This document shows, piece by piece, positions 1 to 6,538 of a DNA stretch of 6,538 nt. Under the pieces are notes generated by a model that was not told the DNA's origin, made no database searches, and was given only the letters and a program-made list of their open reading frames with translations. How positions within the stretch are numbered: the first letter of the stretch is position 1; each line of letters opens with the position of its first letter. The DNA is from Promethearchaeota archaeon. GTDB lineage: Archaea > Asgardarchaeota > Lokiarchaeia > Sigynarchaeales > MK-D1. Location of the stretch: the NCBI GenBank assembly GCA_016839865.1, contig JAEOTN010000093.1, positions 1 through 6,538 on the forward strand. The letters are read 5' to 3'. The position numbers and the translations under genes were made by a program.

Positions 1-617
1 CTCCCAAACGGTCTAAATAGACCTGCTACTGTAATAGCTGCAAATACAGTACTAGTTAAACTTAAAGCTGTTTGAGCATAAAATCCAAAGAAACTTGCAA
101 TGAGTTGTATTAATGACATAATTCCAATCCCAAGTGCCATATTGTCCTTTAATTTTATTCCTGCTTGAAATAATGCAAGCATAGAAGCTATTCCAAAAGT
201 CATGATAAACATAAACACGAAATTGATTTCTGGAATTATTATGCTCATTACAATAGCTCCAACCATTAAAAATCCAGGAAATAATATAAAAGCGTCCCAT
301 CGGTTGATGTATGCTGCAAATGTTGAGCTAAACATAATAGTAATGCCCATGAAAACTGTATTCACAGTGAAGTCATTGATTGATACTCCAATTAATCCTT
401 CAAGCGTTTGTAGATCCAAGGCATGATAGCCAATCGTTAAGGCGTGGCTAAATAAGCTAAACATAAATGACATAGCCATCAACATTCTAGCAATATTGAA
501 TTGCTTTGTTTCGCGAAATTGTTTCACATTTCGTTGCAACATGAAGGTAATCATAGTTCCTAATGCTACAAACGAAATGGAAGAGCGAATTATGAGCCAT
601 AAAGTTTGTGTATCCAT
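1..617 (-). CDS. Multi-pass membrane protein, about seven predicted TM segments, partial (C-terminus beyond left edge)
   Basis: An open frame of 205 codons starts at an ATG at 617-615 and runs without a stop to the left edge, so the C-terminus is missing. The start is supported by a GGAG Shine-Dalgarno site six bases upstream. The translation is very hydrophobic and rich in Met and Phe. By eye it holds about seven membrane segments, near residues 5-27, 42-66, 84-104, 109-128, 130-150, 158-180 and 184-203, joined by short loops. The first loop is basic (QRNVKQFRETKQ, 28-39), which favours a cytosolic position and an outside N-terminus. I recognise no family. The fold could be a seven-helix sensor or receptor-like domain, with a possible signalling domain beyond the edge. 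It is the third gene of the minus-strand cluster after the Arf-like GTPase and a small soluble protein, so a role as membrane partner of the GTPase is possible. That role is inferred from position only. Confidence 0.8.
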   Translation of the reverse strand, partial: MDTQTLWLIIRSSISFVALGTMITFMLQRNVKQFRETKQFNIARMLMAMSFMFSLFSHALTIGYHALDLQTLEGLIGVSINDFTVNTVFMGITIMFSSTFAAYINRWDAFILFPGFLMVGAIVMSIIIPEINFVFMFIMTFGIASMLALFQAGIKLKDNMALGIGIMSLIQLIASFFGFYAQTALSLTSTVFAAITVAGLFRPFG

Positions 618-675
618 TTTTTTCTCCTTTACTCAGTTTTTTTTGTATTGTTTTTTTTAGTAGTGCGTCGTTTTT
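618..675 (-). other. A-rich spacer between the small protein and the membrane-protein gene
   Basis: This 58-nt gap holds several A-runs on the transcribed (minus-sense) strand, including two of eight A. There is no T-run after the stop of the upstream gene and no clear TATA box, so read-through into the membrane-protein gene is likely. The T-runs seen on the plus strand would only end a rightward transcript, and no rightward gene is present here. Confidence 0.5.
624..627 (-). promoter_or_regulatory. Shine-Dalgarno site of the multi-pass membrane protein
   Basis: On the minus strand the sequence reads AAAGGAGAAA just before the ATG at 617. The GGAG core lies six bases from the start codon, which is ideal spacing. 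It fixes the start of a gene whose other end is outside the window. Confidence 0.75.
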
Positions 676-1170
676 TTAGAAGAGACCTCCTCGAATTTTT
701 CGAGTGTCTCTTTCAATGGACATCCCAGTATTGGTGAGATACCCGTGAATATCAAAAGTATACGAATCATAGATGAAACTACCTCGGTTTAAACCACTAT
801 GTAATTTCTTTCCTAAATCCGTAAATGCTTCAATTTCTTTGATCTTCTCAATTTGAAATTCGTCAAAAATTGTCTTCAAGATCGAGATAATTGTGCTTTT
901 CTCGGCATGATCATTAAGTAATAAACTAATAGTAACTACATCATTTCGAGTATTATCCTGCTGTAATTCCGAAACAATCACTACCAAATCTTGCCCTTTA
1001 TATGTATGTTCATATAGATCTCCAGTTTTGGCACCATTTGGTAATGTATAGGTTATAATTTTATCTTTTCTAATCCCTGAATCATTTGGAAAACAAGTAT
1101 ATATCTCAGGATTTGAACCAGATTCTCCCTTTAATGCAGAGATGATTATATTTGTAACAATCGGTTTCAT
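676..1170 (-). CDS. Small soluble protein (164 aa), possibly longin-like, partner of the Arf-like GTPase
   Basis: The protein has no signal peptide or membrane segment and is expected to be cytosolic. Its ATG at 1170 has a GGGAG ribosome site 12 bases upstream. Residues 37-105 look like a compact alternating alpha/beta domain: a strand (KIITYTLP, 37-44), a Gly/Asp turn (GAKTGDLYEH, 46-55), a hydrophobic strand (LVVIVSEL, 62-69), another (VVTISLLL, 78-85), then an amphipathic helix (STIISILKTIFDEF, 92-105). That order resembles longin-type modules that often accompany Asgard small GTPases, but I cannot name a family and the assignment is weak. The tail (106-164) is charged and ends in a basic stretch followed by GGLF. 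The gene lies 39 nt downstream of the GTPase and 58 nt upstream of a membrane protein on the same strand. A regulator, adaptor or exchange-factor role for the GTPase is inferred from position. Confidence 0.75.
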   Translation of the reverse strand: MKPIVTNIIISALKGESGSNPEIYTCFPNDSGIRKDKIITYTLPNGAKTGDLYEHTYKGQDLVVIVSELQQDNTRNDVVTISLLLNDHAEKSTIISILKTIFDEFQIEKIKEIEAFTDLGKKLHSGLNRGSFIYDSYTFDIHGYLTNTGMSIERDTRKIRGGLF

Positions 1171-1182
1171 GATAATTTTCTT

Positions 1183-1187
1183 CTCCC
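1183..1187 (-). promoter_or_regulatory. Shine-Dalgarno site inside a small hairpin, before the 164-aa protein
   Basis: The minus-strand GGGAG lies 12 bases upstream of the ATG at 1170. It is also the 3' arm of a short inverted repeat (TTCCC, loop AATA, GGGAG; five pairs including one G-U). The hairpin could partly hide the ribosome site and so set the level of this second gene relative to the GTPase. The stem is short, so the effect may be small. Confidence 0.5.
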
Positions 1188-1209
1188 TATTGGGAATAAA
1201 ATAAAAAAT

Positions 1210-2106
1210 TTACATTAAATTTGTTGCATAGTGTGCTACTTTAAGCTCTACGTCTTGTCTCTCTCCGTTAGAATTACTTTCTAGATGAGCTAACAAGTCT
1301 TTTAATGCATCCTCAGAATACTCTAACGGTGTATCTAATTCGTTATTCCATAAGAGTGCACCAATGTAATTGTTGCTGCGCATAATTACGAAAGTTCCAT
1401 TATCTTGAGATTCAAATTTGATATTACTATTTACCATACCTTTCATGTTTGCAAAAGCCGTAATCGCGGATAAGAACCCACCTTCCAAAATTGTTTGATC
1501 AACATTTTGGCCACTAGAATTCATAACTAATGGAATTCCACTGTTATCATAAATCGTAATTGCCTTAGCGACAACATTTTTCTTGATAACTTTTCCTGTT
1601 AAGATTGAGTAAAATTTCGTAAAGAAATCTACCATACCATATCCAGTCATAGCTGAAATGGTCATAATTTCAAAATTATCAACCTTATGGAGTTCAAAAA
1701 TGTCGATAAGATCTTTTACTGTCATTCCTGGAAGATCCCATTTATTTGCTGCAATTAAGATTTTGACCTTGTGTTTCAATGCTAACGGTAAGATTTTCTC
1801 GAATTCACGTCGTGATTCTTGAACACGATCCAAGTCGGATCGGTCGATAACCCATAAAACACACTTTGCGTCTTTCATTTCTCCAAGCCAGATGGAACGA
1901 AATGCACTTTGTCCACCCATATCAAATAGTTCTAATTTAGTACCTGATACAATGATTTCTTGTTTCTCTTTTCCCATCGTCGGTGTTGTGGGCACAAAAC
2001 GCCCCTCTTTCAAGAAGTTAACAATAGTAGTTTTTCCACTATTATCTAACCCGCAAATAACGGTTTTTAAATTTGTTCTACGTCTAATTCTGTCAAATAA
2101 TCCCAT
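1210..2106 (-). CDS. Arf/ARL-like small GTPase with C-terminal sensor-like (longin/roadblock-type) extension
   Basis: This 298-aa protein is an Arf-family GTP-binding switch fused to an extra domain; Arf proteins themselves are about 180 aa. All G motifs are visible: P-loop GLDNSGKT (19-26), switch I PTMG with Thr43, switch II DMGGQ (62-66) with the Gln66 expected for hydrolysis, NKWD (121-124) for guanine, and SAMTG (151-155). The N-terminus, MGLFDRIRRR, has the Gly2 of Arf proteins and a short basic helix that could touch membranes; there is no C-terminal prenylation cysteine. Residues about 175-298 form a second alpha/beta domain (AITIYDNSGIPLVM, then EGGFLSAITAFANM, then IKFES...TFVIMRS), resembling longin/roadblock-type sensor modules that accompany GTPases in archaea. 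It is the first gene of the minus-strand cluster, followed by a possible longin-like protein and a multi-pass membrane protein. The GTPase call is firm. The fold of the extension and the pathway are inferred. Confidence 0.93.
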   Translation of the reverse strand: MGLFDRIRRRTNLKTVICGLDNSGKTTIVNFLKEGRFVPTTPTMGKEKQEIIVSGTKLELFDMGGQSAFRSIWLGEMKDAKCVLWVIDRSDLDRVQESRREFEKILPLALKHKVKILIAANKWDLPGMTVKDLIDIFELHKVDNFEIMTISAMTGYGMVDFFTKFYSILTGKVIKKNVVAKAITIYDNSGIPLVMNSSGQNVDQTILEGGFLSAITAFANMKGMVNSNIKFESQDNGTFVIMRSNNYIGALLWNNELDTPLEYSEDALKDLLAHLESNSNGERQDVELKVAHYATNLM

Positions 2107-2123
2107 GTTGTTTTCACTTCGTT

Positions 2124-2141
2124 AATCAGTGTTCAGTGATT
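2124..2141. repeat. Imperfect 18-bp palindrome (AATCAGTGTTCAGTGATT), candidate operator of the GTPase cluster
   Basis: The two 8-base arms around a central TT pair at seven of eight positions (one G/G mismatch). The same stretch can be read as two TCAGTG units seven bases apart. It lies 17 bases upstream of the GTPase ATG, in the leader or at the promoter of the minus-strand cluster, where a dimeric repressor could bind. Chance is possible in AT-rich DNA. Confidence 0.35.
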
Positions 2142-2266
2142 TTAGTAAGATCTAATGATTTACAAAATAGTTTAAGAACTAACTCTTGGAATGTTTCTAA
2201 TAAAGAGCGGAATGAATTTCATAATTCCAATCTGCAGATCAATTAAACAGACTTTTAACTATTCTC

Positions 2267-2298
2267 GATATAAGTGGATTCCTCATCAGAGATATAAT
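2267..2298 (+). promoter_or_regulatory. Two candidate TATA boxes for the VTT-family gene
   Basis: GATATAAG (2267-2274) and GATATAAT (2291-2298) lie 24 bp apart. An archaeal start site usually falls about 25 bp downstream of the box, giving starts near 2297 or 2321 and a leader of about 60-80 nt before the ATG at 2379. Which one is used cannot be decided from sequence. Confidence 0.35.
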
Positions 2299-2378
2299 CA
2301 AAATTCTGCATAACTAAGGTTAAACAGTTAATTCTGGCTACAATCAAATTCAAATAGGTTCGATTTAAGGATACATTT

Positions 2379-3329
2379 ATGGAAGAAGGCAAGACCCAAT
2401 CTCAAGATACTGAGAAACAACCATTTTTTCAACGTTTATGGCAAGGTACTAAGAAAATCGCCATTCAATTTTGGGATATGGTTAAACGTGCCTTCCGAGA
2501 TCATAGTAAGACAACTTGGATATGGATTGGAATTTTTATAGCTGTTCTTGTTTTCACCGTTCTTCTTTGGGTCATGCAGATTTATGATGATACTTTGCTA
2601 TTTCGTTTCGTGATGTTGTATATTGTGAAACCTATTCATGAAATTAAATTTTGGGGGCATCTACTTTTCTTCATTTTTATGGGAATTCAAGCTATCTTGT
2701 TACCCCTTCCTTCTGAGGCACTTTTACTGAGTAGTGGACTGATATGGGGGTGGTGGGGTATTATTGATGGAATCGTTGGAAGTATGTTTGCAGGTGTAAT
2801 AACATACTACATGGTTCTAAAAGGTGGACGCCCATTAGCGGAGAAGTTTGCGGGAAAAGAAGCAATAGATATTTTAGATCGATTTATTGACAAATATGGT
2901 GCATGGGCAATTGTCATTTTACGTGCTTTTCCCTTTATGGCATTTGATCCAGTAAGCTTTGCTGCAGGATTAACAAAGATTGAAACTAAAACGTATTTGC
3001 TTGCTACATTCGTTGGTTCTATCTTCAGGGTTGTTTTTTATGTAGCGTTAAAAGGATTTTTCCTTGGAGGGAATAATATAGAAGATCTCATTAGTGATCC
3101 CATCCTTATGGATACACTCATTCATGAAAGGTCAAAAATATTCAACATAATGTCTCTTGTGATAGTATTACTGGGAGTTGGAAGTCTAGCCGCTTATCAG
3201 TTCGTCGTTATGCCATATTTGAAACGCAAAGGACGGAAAGAGAAAGCCGAAAACAATGTACTTGTTACCAAAGAAAAAACAGAATCTCATGAAATCGAAC
3301 ATAAATCAAAACCTACGAATGATTCCTAA
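2379..3329 (+). CDS. VTT/DedA (SNARE-associated, TVP38/TMEM64) family membrane protein
   Basis: This 316-aa integral membrane protein carries the VTT-domain signatures: PLPSE (109-113) followed by a Gly-rich stretch (SSGLIWGWWG, 118-127), then RAFPF (182-186) and DPVSFAAGLTK (190-200). Family members are half-transporter-like proteins in bacteria (DedA), and eukaryotic relatives TMEM41B and VMP1 move phospholipids between membrane leaflets; others bear on membrane-potential homeostasis. Membrane segments are seen near 46-65, 92-110, 113-145 (partly re-entrant), 175-198, 206-229 and 256-280. Both ends are unusually long and charged: a polar N-terminal stretch (1-45) with an amphipathic part, and a Lys/Glu-rich tail (282-316). 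The ATG follows an AAGGA ribosome site by seven bases. The gene is divergent from the Arf-like GTPase cluster. Family assignment is good; the transported lipid or ion is unknown. Confidence 0.85.
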   Translation: MEEGKTQSQDTEKQPFFQRLWQGTKKIAIQFWDMVKRAFRDHSKTTWIWIGIFIAVLVFTVLLWVMQIYDDTLLFRFVMLYIVKPIHEIKFWGHLLFFIFMGIQAILLPLPSEALLLSSGLIWGWWGIIDGIVGSMFAGVITYYMVLKGGRPLAEKFAGKEAIDILDRFIDKYGAWAIVILRAFPFMAFDPVSFAAGLTKIETKTYLLATFVGSIFRVVFYVALKGFFLGGNNIEDLISDPILMDTLIHERSKIFNIMSLVIVLLGVGSLAAYQFVVMPYLKRKGRKEKAENNVLVTKEKTESHEIEHKSKPTNDS

Positions 3330-3366
3330 ACTTCGTATTTTCTTGTGACTCAATCTAACTCATAAC

Positions 3367-3373
3367 TTTATAT
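3367..3373 (+). promoter_or_regulatory. Candidate TATA box for the DUF401 permease
   Basis: TTTATAT lies in the 94-nt gap between the VTT gene and the permease, and matches the archaeal TATA consensus well. Transcription would begin near 3395-3400, leaving a leader of about 25 nt that includes the GGTGG ribosome site. It suggests the permease can be transcribed separately from the VTT gene. Confidence 0.4.
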
Positions 3374-3423
3374 CTCATACCAAATTGATACAGCTATAAC
3401 CCTCTGGTGGATGAACGCATACA

Positions 3424-4695
3424 TTGTTACCAATCTGGATTTCTTTTCTTATAGCAGTTGCGATAATACTTGTGTTATCTCAAATTGGACTAAAGGATCT
3501 GGGAACGGCATTATTTGCTGGAGCAATATTTCTCGCGCTTATGTCCGTTTTTCCTTATAGGGTTGATTTAAAAGAAGTTACTAAAGTCGTATTTCTTACC
3601 CCAAAGAATATTTTTCTTGCATTATCTGTAGCGGTAATTCCTCTCTTAGGAGGTATCATGAATAAATCTGGTTTAATGATGGAACTTATTCACCGTTTAG
3701 ATGTATCTAATAAATGGAGTTTGATGCTGTCACCTGGTTTATTCGGTTTATTACCGATGCCCGGTGGTGCTTTACTCAGCGCTCCTTTAGTTGATAGTAT
3801 TGATTCAAACATCGCTCCCCATAAAAAAGTCGCAATAAATGTGTGGTTCAGACATGTGCTGATTTTAGTTTATCCACTTCAAGGTTCAATATTGGTAGTA
3901 ACGGATATTGTTGGATTTTCCAATCCATACATAACTAGTGGGATTTTACTGACTCCATTTGTTATAATGGTGTCAATCGGATTTTTTTATCTTATTCTAA
4001 CTACACCAAAAATTGAGAGAAAGAACACTAGAAATCTCTGGATATTTCTAAGAGACGTTTTACCAATCTTATTAGCTCCAATAATTGATATTATCTGTCG
4101 AATAATACTGGGAAGATTAGAAAATAATGGTATAGACATACCTTATTGGATAGTTCCTGAGATGTTTCTTTTCCTAGGATTAATACTCAGTGTCATTCTA
4201 TCATTTATTTTATCAAAAAGTGCAAAATCCGAAGAAATTTCCCAAGTCAAAGTCAAAGAAATATTAGGAGTTGCCAAAAAAATGAAAGTTTGGCGATATC
4301 CAGTGATGATCTTTGGTATGTTTTTCTTTTTACAAGTATTTATCCGATCTGGAATGCCAGAATTCATCAGCTCACTTAATGCTCCTATGGTTTTATTCTT
4401 GCTAATTTCATTTTTACTTGGAGTTGGCACGGGACGGGTACAATTACCTGCTTCAATCTTGTTTCCAATCTATATGACTCAACATGTATTAACTGTAATG
4501 CCTTTCTTCCATTTTGGTTTAATTTACTTTGCGATATTTCTCGGTTATTTAATGACCCCTATTCATCCATGTCTTGCGTATAGTATAGACTATTTTAAGA
4601 CAACATATGCAAAATCCTTCCGAAATATTGCTATCCCTTGTTTAATTGGACTTACTATTGTGTATGCAGTCTACGGTGTATCTCTTTTATTTTAA
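3424..4695 (+). CDS. DUF401-family integral membrane permease
   Basis: This 423-aa protein has about ten or more membrane segments and the landmarks of the DUF401 family, which is found mainly in archaea and resembles ion-transporter (IT) superfamily carriers such as GntP-type permeases. Landmarks are LLPMPGGALLSAP (109-121), FRHVLILVYPLQG (142-154), a matching second-half motif GTGRVQLPAS (335-344), and TPIHPCL (378-384). The two motif pairs suggest the inverted-repeat build of such carriers. The substrate is unknown; organic anions are a fair guess. No ATG fits the start: the frame is closed by a stop at 3412-3414 and the first internal Met is residue 40, inside the domain. TTG at 3424 is therefore chosen, with GGTGG (3406-3410) as ribosome site 13 bases upstream. 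An ATG at 3411 is in another frame. The neighbouring VTT gene is 94 nt upstream on the same strand. Confidence 0.85.
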   Translation: MLPIWISFLIAVAIILVLSQIGLKDLGTALFAGAIFLALMSVFPYRVDLKEVTKVVFLTPKNIFLALSVAVIPLLGGIMNKSGLMMELIHRLDVSNKWSLMLSPGLFGLLPMPGGALLSAPLVDSIDSNIAPHKKVAINVWFRHVLILVYPLQGSILVVTDIVGFSNPYITSGILLTPFVIMVSIGFFYLILTTPKIERKNTRNLWIFLRDVLPILLAPIIDIICRIILGRLENNGIDIPYWIVPEMFLFLGLILSVILSFILSKSAKSEEISQVKVKEILGVAKKMKVWRYPVMIFGMFFFLQVFIRSGMPEFISSLNAPMVLFLLISFLLGVGTGRVQLPASILFPIYMTQHVLTVMPFFHFGLIYFAIFLGYLMTPIHPCLAYSIDYFKTTYAKSFRNIAIPCLIGLTIVYAVYGVSLLF

Positions 4696-4718
4696 GTATT
4701 CAGTCATAGGGAAAAACC

Positions 4719-4725
4719 ATATAAT
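4719..4725 (+). promoter_or_regulatory. Candidate TATA box for the U32 gene, implying a near-leaderless transcript
   Basis: ATATAAT follows an A-rich stretch (GAAAAACC, 4711-4718) that could be a TFB-recognition element. A start site about 25 bp downstream would fall near 4747-4749, only six to eight bases before the ATG at 4755. This fits the lack of a Shine-Dalgarno site there. Confidence 0.45.
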
Positions 4726-4754
4726 CCATGAAATTTTGATTTATTTTGAAGACT

Positions 4755-6065
4755 ATGGTTGAACTACTTGCTCCTGCAAAGAATTTGAAATCTATTAAAG
4801 CTGGATTGAAATTTGCTGATTCCTTCTACTTTGGATTTGAAAAATTTAATATGAGGATGCAAGCAGACAACTTCACTCAGCAAGATCTCCCAAAAGCAGT
4901 TAAACTACTCCATGATAACAACAAAAAAGCATTTTTAACAACAAATATTTTGTTTTATGAAGAAGAGTTAAACGAATTACGAGAACTGTTAGAACTTGCC
5001 TATACATCTGAATTTGATGCGGTTATTCTTCATGATGTCGCTGCTGTGCAATATGCCCGGGATATCGGAATACCCTTTCATATATCTACCCAAGCTAACA
5101 TATCAAACTCTGTTTCAGCACGATTTTATGAAAATTTAGGTGCCGAACGTTTAATTCTTGCACGAGAATGTTCATTGAAGCAAATTGAAAAAATTGTGAA
5201 ACAATTAAAAAAAGCCGAGATTGAAGTGTTTGTGCATGGAGCAATGTGTACCTCAATTTCTGGTAGATGTTATTTCTCACAAGATATATGTGGAGGAGAT
5301 AACAAGTTCTCAGCAAATAGAGGTAGATGTACTCAACCTTGTCGGCGTGATTGGACTGTAATTGATAACCAAAACAACGAATATATCTATGATGGAGTTC
5401 GTTTCATGAATTCTCGAGATTTATGCCTGATAGAATTTTTGCCAGAAATTATCAAGACGGGAGTGAAAGCATTAAAAATTGAAGGGAGAATGCGAGAACC
5501 TCACTATGTCCATTGGATTACCAAGATTTATCGGGAAGCACTAGAAGCATATAAAAAAGGCGAATTCTCGACTTCCAAGAAAAAAAAGGTTGGTTTATGG
5601 ATAAATGAGCTAAAAAAAGTATACAATAGAGGATTTACACAAGGTTTCCTCTTTAATCGAATGCAATCTATCGACCACCAGTATAAATCTCCAACAAACC
5701 TATCTCACTGGCGTCTAATAAAATTGGGTACAATTACTGCATTTTCCAAACCCATTGGAATTGTTAAGTTGACTAATGGATTTATTAAAGAAAATTCACG
5801 ACTGATTGTCCAAGGAAACTCCGAATCTGATACTTTCTTTCCACAACAAGTTAAACAACTTAAAATGGGGACACAATCCGTACCTATTTCTAAAAAAGCG
5901 ACCGAAGCAAATCCGGTTACAATTTCCATGAAATTTGATCATTCGGTCATTCCACAAAAGGATTCATTATACCTTTTTACTGATACGACATATCGACACC
6001 GAAAATCAAGTAAGGGGAAAAAAGGTAATAAAGGGAAAAAGAAGAATGATTTTTACAAACTTTAG
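4755..6065 (+). CDS. U32-family (TrhP/YegQ-like) iron-sulfur protein, probable tRNA U34 hydroxylation enzyme
   Basis: This 436-aa protein belongs to peptidase family U32. Despite the name, studied members are iron-sulfur hydroxylases: TrhP makes 5-hydroxyuridine at tRNA position 34, RlhA acts on 23S rRNA and UbiU/UbiV on ubiquinone precursors. Visible landmarks are the N-terminal MVELLAPAKN, HISTQANISN (109-118), FVHGAMCTSISGRCYFSQ (159-176), NRGRCTQPCR (188-197), MNSRDLCLI (218-226) and the U32 signature VKALKIEGRMR (237-247). Cys165, Cys172, Cys192/196 and Cys224 match the pattern that holds a [4Fe-4S] cluster in relatives; Cys179 is extra. Residues about 315-410 form the beta-barrel domain of longer members, as in TrhP. 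The tail (from about 415) is Lys/Gly-rich and could bind RNA. A TTG nine bases upstream is in frame, but ATG 4755 matches the family start. The gene overlaps the convergent right-edge gene by three to four bases. A tRNA role is inferred. Confidence 0.88.
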   Translation: MVELLAPAKNLKSIKAGLKFADSFYFGFEKFNMRMQADNFTQQDLPKAVKLLHDNNKKAFLTTNILFYEEELNELRELLELAYTSEFDAVILHDVAAVQYARDIGIPFHISTQANISNSVSARFYENLGAERLILARECSLKQIEKIVKQLKKAEIEVFVHGAMCTSISGRCYFSQDICGGDNKFSANRGRCTQPCRRDWTVIDNQNNEYIYDGVRFMNSRDLCLIEFLPEIIKTGVKALKIEGRMREPHYVHWITKIYREALEAYKKGEFSTSKKKKVGLWINELKKVYNRGFTQGFLFNRMQSIDHQYKSPTNLSHWRLIKLGTITAFSKPIGIVKLTNGFIKENSRLIVQGNSESDTFFPQQVKQLKMGTQSVPISKKATEANPVTISMKFDHSVIPQKDSLYLFTDTTYRHRKSSKGKKGNKGKKKNDFYKL

Positions 6066-6538
6066 TAAATTCGTTTGATTACTTCCATTGCTTGAGTATC
6101 ATCATTTACAGATTGAGACTGTTGGAATGCTGAATGGAAGAATTCACGATCTTCAGGATCAAAATACTTGAATCCAAACTGCTTCCAATGAGTATCCTTT
6201 GCTAGAGTCGAAATCATAGATAATTTATCACGAACAAGATTCATAACAACCAAGTTGATTATCTGGTCTTGTTTCCGCTTTGCTTTTGTGGATAACAACA
6301 CTTCTCCTTTATAGTTAGAATAATTTCCATCAAATTGGAACATCATTTTTTGAATATCCATAACACCACTGTTAATGAGATTTGCAATTGCATTAATAGC
6401 CATATCACTGGAAGCAACATTCGGATTTTGGGAATTAATCACACTTGAAATCCCAGGGATTGAATTATGTTCTAAATAAGGTGCTCCGTATTCTGGAAGT
6501 AGTTTTAATTGATTCAATCCCATGATATTTTGCATATC
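6062..6538 (-). CDS. Protein of unknown function, probably a C-terminal part (cut by right edge)
   Basis: The frame runs from the right edge to a TAA at 6064-6062. An ATG at 6535 would give 157 aa and another at 6523 would give 153 aa, but the frame is still open at the last codon of the window and the first residues (QNIMGLNQLKLLPEYG) look internal, so a longer protein is likely. It is soluble and mostly helical by appearance. There is an Asn/Ser-rich stretch (about 24-44), a hydrophobic helix (AINAIANLINSGVMDIQKMM, 46-65), a basic segment (STKAKRKQ, 82-89), a second long helix (IINLVVMNLVRDKLSMISTL, 92-111), and an aromatic, acidic part (FGFKYFDPEDREFF, 120-133). I recognise no family. Its stop overlaps the stop of the U32 gene, and the two genes converge with no spacer. 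Confidence 0.65.
   Translation of the reverse strand, partial: DMQNIMGLNQLKLLPEYGAPYLEHNSIPGISSVINSQNPNVASSDMAINAIANLINSGVMDIQKMMFQFDGNYSNYKGEVLLSTKAKRKQDQIINLVVMNLVRDKLSMISTLAKDTHWKQFGFKYFDPEDREFFHSAFQQSQSVNDDTQAMEVIKRIY

Follow-up and report, generated by a model that had tools for sequence, protein, structure and literature searches.

Do three adjacent genes of an Asgard archaeon encode the parts of one membrane GTP switch? The question is raised by a stretch of 6,538 nucleotides (nt) from a Promethearchaeota archaeon (assembly GCA_016839865.1, contig JAEOTN010000093.1, positions 1 to 6,538; hereafter the window), which carries on its minus strand genes for an Arf-family GTPase, a small soluble protein (the middle protein) and a seven-transmembrane (7TM) protein (TM1). 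A preliminary description of the sequence had read the three as a membrane-linked GTP switch with its own regulator and membrane partner. We searched for the same genes in other Asgard genomes and found that their linkage is more than chance.

Linkage of the three genes in Asgard genomes

Genomes of the GTDB were scanned with an alignment of the GTPase, yielding 79 loci, and open reading frames (ORFs) were called around the matches. Loci L001-L024 and L054 are labeled Prometheoarchaeum, Lokiarchaeota, Lokiarchaeia, Sigynarchaeota and, once, 'Bathyarchaeota'; in most of them, the GTPase has as neighbors a middle gene and one or two multi-pass genes. Two Heimdallarchaeota loci, L026 and L027, have a middle gene followed by an Arf of a single domain and a multi-pass gene. 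A 34-row profile of the middle protein has matches in at least 49 of the 227 genomes of the phylum, and a TM1 profile recovered 30 genes (31 rows, one being a second piece in G150) in at least 26; both genome counts are lower bounds, since at most 16 and 13 candidates per genome, respectively, were scored. The middle-protein profile had no match in 150 genomes of one bacterial phylum, nor in 2 bacterial genomes.

Neighborhoods were tallied by the score of the middle gene, with multi-pass genes counted by a simple hydropathy rule. Of the middle genes of 150 bits or more, 28/29 had an Arf GTPase within 3.5 kilobases (kb) and 25/29 shared their same-strand run with a multi-pass gene; the corresponding figures were 19/30 and 24/30 for middle genes of 65-150 bits, and 4/26 and 9/26 for distant ones. 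Well-scoring middle genes combined are thus near an Arf GTPase in 47 of 59 cases and share a run with at least one multi-pass gene in 49 of 59. The background, 2/82 similar-sized soluble ORFs of the same loci, is an underestimate, since the multi-pass genes counted as cassette members were not included. One ORF with both middle-protein and GTPase matches (L186) was counted as being without an Arf GTPase within 3.5 kb. By coordinates, 27 of the 30 TM1 genes are direct neighbors of a middle gene, one (L195) lies at a contig end beside the GTPase and TM2, a second 7TM gene, and two (L196 and L197) are elsewhere. The middle and TM profiles were seeded from GTPase-centered loci, which biases them toward linked copies and partly builds in the linkage counts of close relatives, a bias partly offset because the whole-genome searches with the middle-protein and TM1 profiles would have revealed unlinked copies. 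The adjacency noted in the preliminary description thus recurs often among homologs.

Gene order varies. With MID for the middle gene and tmX for any other multi-pass gene, the 59 comprise 16 MID-Arf-tmX, 15 MID-TM1-TM2-ArfRB, 8 MID-tmX, 5 MID alone, 4 ArfRB-MID-TM1-TM2, 3 ArfRB-MID, 2 MID-Arf, 2 ArfRB-MID-TM1 and 4 single cases; as far as it extends, the window has the order ArfRB-MID-TM1. The median gap is 0 nt both from MID to TM1 and from TM1 to TM2, 0.5 nt from Arf to tmX and 218 nt from TM2 to ArfRB. The middle-protein profile has five to eight matches in each of the genomes G004, G060 and G064, and several of these matches come with an Arf and a multi-pass gene of their own; the cassette has multiplied there, which is common for receptor systems. 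As far as sequence can indicate, the conserved three-gene unit suggests an ancient membrane signaling unit.

Predicted properties of the proteins and their layout

Residues 10-164 of the GTPase match the Arf profile PF00025 (E 3.3e-33; 115 bits against a curated cut-off of 22.3), and the Rag profile PF04670 reaches 17 bits, under its curated cut-off of 22, so by Pfam profile the family is Arf, not Rag. The motifs GLDNSGKTT, TPTMG, DMGGQ, NKWD and SA are intact, with the catalytic Gln of DxGGQ present, and G24, K25, D62, G64, G65, Q66, N121, K122 and D124 are invariant in a 21-sequence alignment, in which an MGxF-like N-terminus, looked at with the Arf amphipathic membrane helix in mind, is common. 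The Arf-type GTPase of the preliminary description stands as regards its G domain, with the correction that some 130 further residues form a second domain. This C-terminal domain is probably of the longin/roadblock class, by weak matches: LAMTOR3/MP1 accounts for 8 of 19 PDB matches at E up to 10 (best E 0.35), and 4 of the 11 Pfam families matched at E up to 1 by 22 members are MAPKK1_Int, LAMTOR5, Fuz_longin_1 and Intu_longin_1, found in 1-4 of the 22 members (best E 0.003). Public data list 98 GTPase relatives, the window's own entry included; most rows are nameless, and the named ones are Loki-, Prometheo-, Sigyn- and Hodarchaeota, Harpocratesius, 'archaeon', one 'Bathyarchaeota' and two eukaryotes. 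A few kb from the cassette in L024, two ORFs of 520-560 amino acids (aa; 9025-10590 and 10610-12292) also match the GTPase profile, at 55 and 49 bits.

Neither the middle protein nor TM1 matched a Pfam or NCBIfam family in the scan of the window proteins, and scattered matches of family members were read as noise. For the middle protein, which has 15 listed relatives in public data including itself, the AlphaFold2 model has a longin fold of order b-b-a-b-b-b-a-a. Longin-bearing entries lead its structural matches and NPRL2/Npr2 chains top both rankings, with chains of DENND1, DENND10, BLOC-3 and Fuzzy-Inturned also present. We therefore describe the middle protein as a predicted longin resembling NPRL2, the sequence evidence being weak: the NPRL2 profile PF06218 scored above its cut-off in 0/227 genomes of the phylum, and the middle protein was not assigned to that family. 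Homology to the GTPase C-terminal domain gave no signal (hhalign E 0.28), and an MglA/MglB-type roadblock partner, the comparison drawn in the preliminary description, was downgraded, as NPRL2/Npr2 outrank MglA-MglB entries structurally.

The model places a conserved arginine, Arg75, two residues before strand 5. NPRL2 Arg78, the arginine finger position used for comparison (from passages of PMC8213707), fell in the same column in 2 of 4 alignment runs and was shifted by one in the other 2; doubtful or fragmentary rows (L004:9221, L006, L139, L153 and L155-L158) were omitted from these alignments. Arginine retention follows Arf linkage: 47/49 Arf-linked middle proteins keep the residue versus 19/34 others, the 83 counted being what remained of 85 tallied ORFs once L183:6236-6841 (17.9 bits, probably no member) and L139 (a gap) were dropped. 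Distant longin relatives of about 150 aa at L141, L143, L145 and L149 keep the arginine and have no Arf GTPase in the tally; their neighbors are large multi-pass genes and a 332-aa gene, which in L145 encodes an amidohydrolase. ORFs of about 300 aa that weakly match the longin profile (L156:3350-4255, L157:3333-4232 and L158:1-876) look like a separate conserved cluster; those of L156 and L157 have a sub-threshold COG4_N match and are flanked by two ORFs of about 140 aa on one side and by ORFs of 270-380 aa on the other.

TM1 is predicted to have seven helices with the N-terminus outside and the C-terminus inside, from topology prediction and the positive-inside rule. Its conserved residues lie in cytoplasmic loops and helices, most strongly in the KDN patch of the third cytoplasmic loop. 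TM1 and TM2 are homologous to each other (E 7.8e-9). The Heimdall-type multi-pass genes have no detectable homology to them and topology alone in common, so a single homologous 7TM family across all Asgards was rejected. In Foldseek, the best structural matches of the TM1 model are G-protein-coupled receptors (GPCRs), though weak (best E 0.013); among the best 50 rows, the highest TM-score, 0.60, belongs to adiponectin receptor 1 (5lxg), and microbial rhodopsins are present as well, so the helix bundle is not GPCR-specific. None of the 12 Pfam families that 31 TM1 members match at E ≤1 is a GPCR family, and we do not claim GPCR homology. The two TM1-family genes outside the cassette (L196:4000-4647 and L197:4033-4686) lie beside a conserved 205-aa gene, a gene of about 400 aa and a protein of about 280 aa with CxxC and CEHxxxAYxDxxFxxRxY motifs, to which a C-terminal extension of TM2 in L004 and L007 is similar.

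An ORF check of the window agreed with the preliminary description that the three genes share a strand with gaps of 39 nt (GTPase to middle gene) and 58 nt (middle gene to TM1). The reported absence of a visible terminator between them is too strong for an archaeon, because a T-rich tract, TTTTTTATTTTATT, lies at 1208-1195, just past the GTPase stop. The membrane protein is predicted to have seven segments, in line with the roughly seven reported, but its gene is incomplete, being cut by the window edge. Only a few C-terminal residues are missing, judging from the 11 listed relatives, which are 206-211 aa long, 5 of them terminating in RPFG(K/R)QEV. The cluster may extend past the window, since TM2 usually comes after TM1 in relatives.

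Table 1. Positions in the window of the GTPase, middle and TM1 genes and of features within and between them.
Feature	Positions	Strand	Basis
Arf-family GTPase gene, 298 aa	1210..2106	-	ORF; PF00025 match
G domain, GTPase residues 10-164	1615..2079	-	PF00025 profile match
GTPase C-terminal domain, residues about 172-298	1213..1593	-	longin/roadblock superfamily, weak matches only
Shine-Dalgarno-like GGGAGAAG (GGGAG) upstream of middle gene	1180..1187	-	read from sequence
Middle gene, soluble longin protein resembling NPRL2, candidate GTPase-activating protein, 164 aa	676..1170	-	
CGA codon of Arg75, candidate arginine finger (cf. NPRL2 Arg78)	946..948	-	
Shine-Dalgarno-like GGAG upstream of 7TM gene	624..627	-	read from sequence
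TM1, seven-helix membrane protein, 205 aa seen, open at window edge	3..617	-	
Lys157-Asp158-Asn159 (KDN), third cytoplasmic loop of TM1, its most conserved patch	141..149	-	

The remainder of the window encodes, on the plus strand (2379-6065), a VTT/DedA-type membrane protein with a sub-threshold UptA match, a DUF401 membrane protein and a U32 peptidase-family protein, and, on the minus strand (6062-6538), an orphan ORF truncated at the end of the window.

A candidate membrane GTP switch and its alternatives

Conserved linkage, the longin prediction, retention of the arginine and the N-out 7TM topology all support the membrane-linked switch of the preliminary description. We propose, at about even confidence, that a single membrane GTP switch is encoded by these three genes, or possibly by four, should TM2 lie past the window edge. 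In this model, the Arf-type GTPase would be the switch; the NPRL2-type middle longin would dimerize, either with itself or with the GTPase C-terminal domain, and insert Arg75 into the GTPase active site as a GTPase-activating protein (GAP); and the 7TM protein, by way of its conserved cytoplasmic loops, would keep this pair at the membrane and control it, responding to a cue from outside or from within the membrane. GAP catalysis, dimerization, the complex, sensing and the direction of control are all steps that we infer. Several observations weigh against the model. The outer loops of TM1 have no conserved residue in the family alignment and hence show no conserved site for an outside ligand; the Lokiarchaeal longin 8yqg superposes on the middle-protein model at lower root-mean-square deviation than NPRL2/Npr2; the Arg75 column holds another residue in 17 of 102 family members and a gap in 2 (this set includes an L120 copy that the ORF-picking rule of the neighborhood tallies missed); and the GTPase position shifts, before MID or after TM2, with one locus (L010/L162) having the GTPase on the opposite strand.

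Among alternatives, the one that survives best, while still rather unlikely, is that the 7TM protein is a passive anchor or a factor akin to those that displace guanine nucleotide dissociation inhibitors (Yip1-like logic), serving trafficking or membrane shaping with no sensing. The unconserved outer loops fit such a role, as do a Yip1 match below threshold (17.9 bits against a cut-off of 28.6) in one Heimdall-type multi-pass protein and the finding, given in passages of PMC12554972, that Asgard ArfRs reach membranes on heterologous expression. However, the Yip1 match occurs in just 1 of 3 scanned multi-pass proteins and is absent from the families of 31 TM1 and 20 TM2 members, and seven N-out helices together with a homologous TM1/TM2 pair look, in our judgment, more receptor-like.

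Longin folds also act as guanine nucleotide exchange factors (GEFs) and scaffolds, as in Mon1-Ccz1, DENN and the TRAPP longins, and the middle longin could be one of these instead of a GAP. We regard this as doubtful. The DENND1, DENND10, BLOC-3 and Fuzzy-Inturned matches, the closer superposition of 8yqg and the variable Arg75 column are in its favor, but NPRL2/Npr2 chains come first in both structural rankings and the arginine is nearly always kept where an Arf GTPase is linked. It is very unlikely that the neighborhood reflects expression alone, with products acting in separate pathways, since linkage persists through rearrangement and duplication (L001, L003, L014/L160) and while the middle protein diverges to about 20% identity, even with the shifting GTPase position on the other side.

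Known systems and significance of the proposed switch

The proposed switch has a close parallel in LYCHOS-GATOR1-Rag, the nutrient-sensing system of eukaryotic lysosomes, which serves as an analogy and not as evidence. In the current model, given in passages of PMC11574030, the lysosomal protein LYCHOS (GPR155) binds GATOR1 via a loop of its GPCR-like part homologous to the third intracellular loop, and so acts on Rag GTPases. Both systems have a small GTPase, an NPRL2-like longin with an arginine just before strand 5 and a 7TM part, which in LYCHOS meets the GAP through a cytoplasmic loop, and the C-terminal domain of the Asgard GTPase is perhaps of the roadblock/longin class (weak). In contrast, the Asgard G domain is Arf by profile, the longin is a stand-alone protein of 164 aa with no PF06218 sequence match, and the 7TM protein has 205 aa, whereas GPR155 comprises 17 helices plus a DEP domain (same passages). 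The comparison with GATOR1 covers NPRL2. In C9orf72:SMCR8, a longin arginine finger acts on an ARF GTPase (passages of PMC8213707), the candidate role here, but from a eukaryotic longin-DENN heterodimer, unlike the single longin-sized Asgard chain.

The MglB of Myxococcus is a roadblock protein and MglA is not an Arf; to our knowledge, no 7TM protein is linked to them. Asgard fusions of GTPases to roadblock or longin domains are known, many being Arf-annotated yet Rag-like structurally (PMC10933270, section 7), as is an Asgard ArfR family (PMC12554972), and an 'NPRL2-like longin domain' is a listed class of Asgard eukaryotic signature proteins (PMC9834061). The relevant passages of these three papers describe proteins rather than a conserved cassette with a candidate longin GAP and 7TM genes, and the main text of PMC10307638 contains none of the terms NPRL2, longin, GATOR, Rag GTPase and Ragulator. 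The preliminary description knew of no system with this make-up, and our literature search found none combining an Arf GTPase, an NPRL2-like longin and a 7TM protein, although subscription papers lay mostly outside the search and a prior description is possible.

A 7TM N-out protein, an Arf-type GTPase and a candidate GAP within one cassette also recall GPCRs, heterotrimeric G proteins and regulators of G-protein signaling, from which the cassette differs in the GPCR family missing from the Pfam matches and in the weak Foldseek similarity. We consider it improbable, though worth stating, that the cassette is a prokaryotic operon of receptor, G protein and GAP, in which 7TM proteins of GPCR fold and topology are membrane receptors and exchange factors for the Arf-type GTPase and the NPRL2-type longin GAP switches it off, as a forerunner of GATOR1-Rag-LYCHOS nutrient signaling and of the receptor-G protein principle, with several paralogous cassettes per genome in Heimdallarchaea.

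The cassette bears on the origin of the eukaryotic longin-type GAPs (NPRL2, FLCN, SMCR8) and of their membrane inputs, since one small, repeated and linked Asgard unit unites an Arf-type GTPase, 7TM proteins and a longin whose arginine is conserved. The proteins are short and number just three or four, which allows direct tests of GAP activity, of complex formation and of membrane input. Should the 7TM proteins prove to control the switch, a circuit of receptor, GTPase and GAP would be older than eukaryotes.
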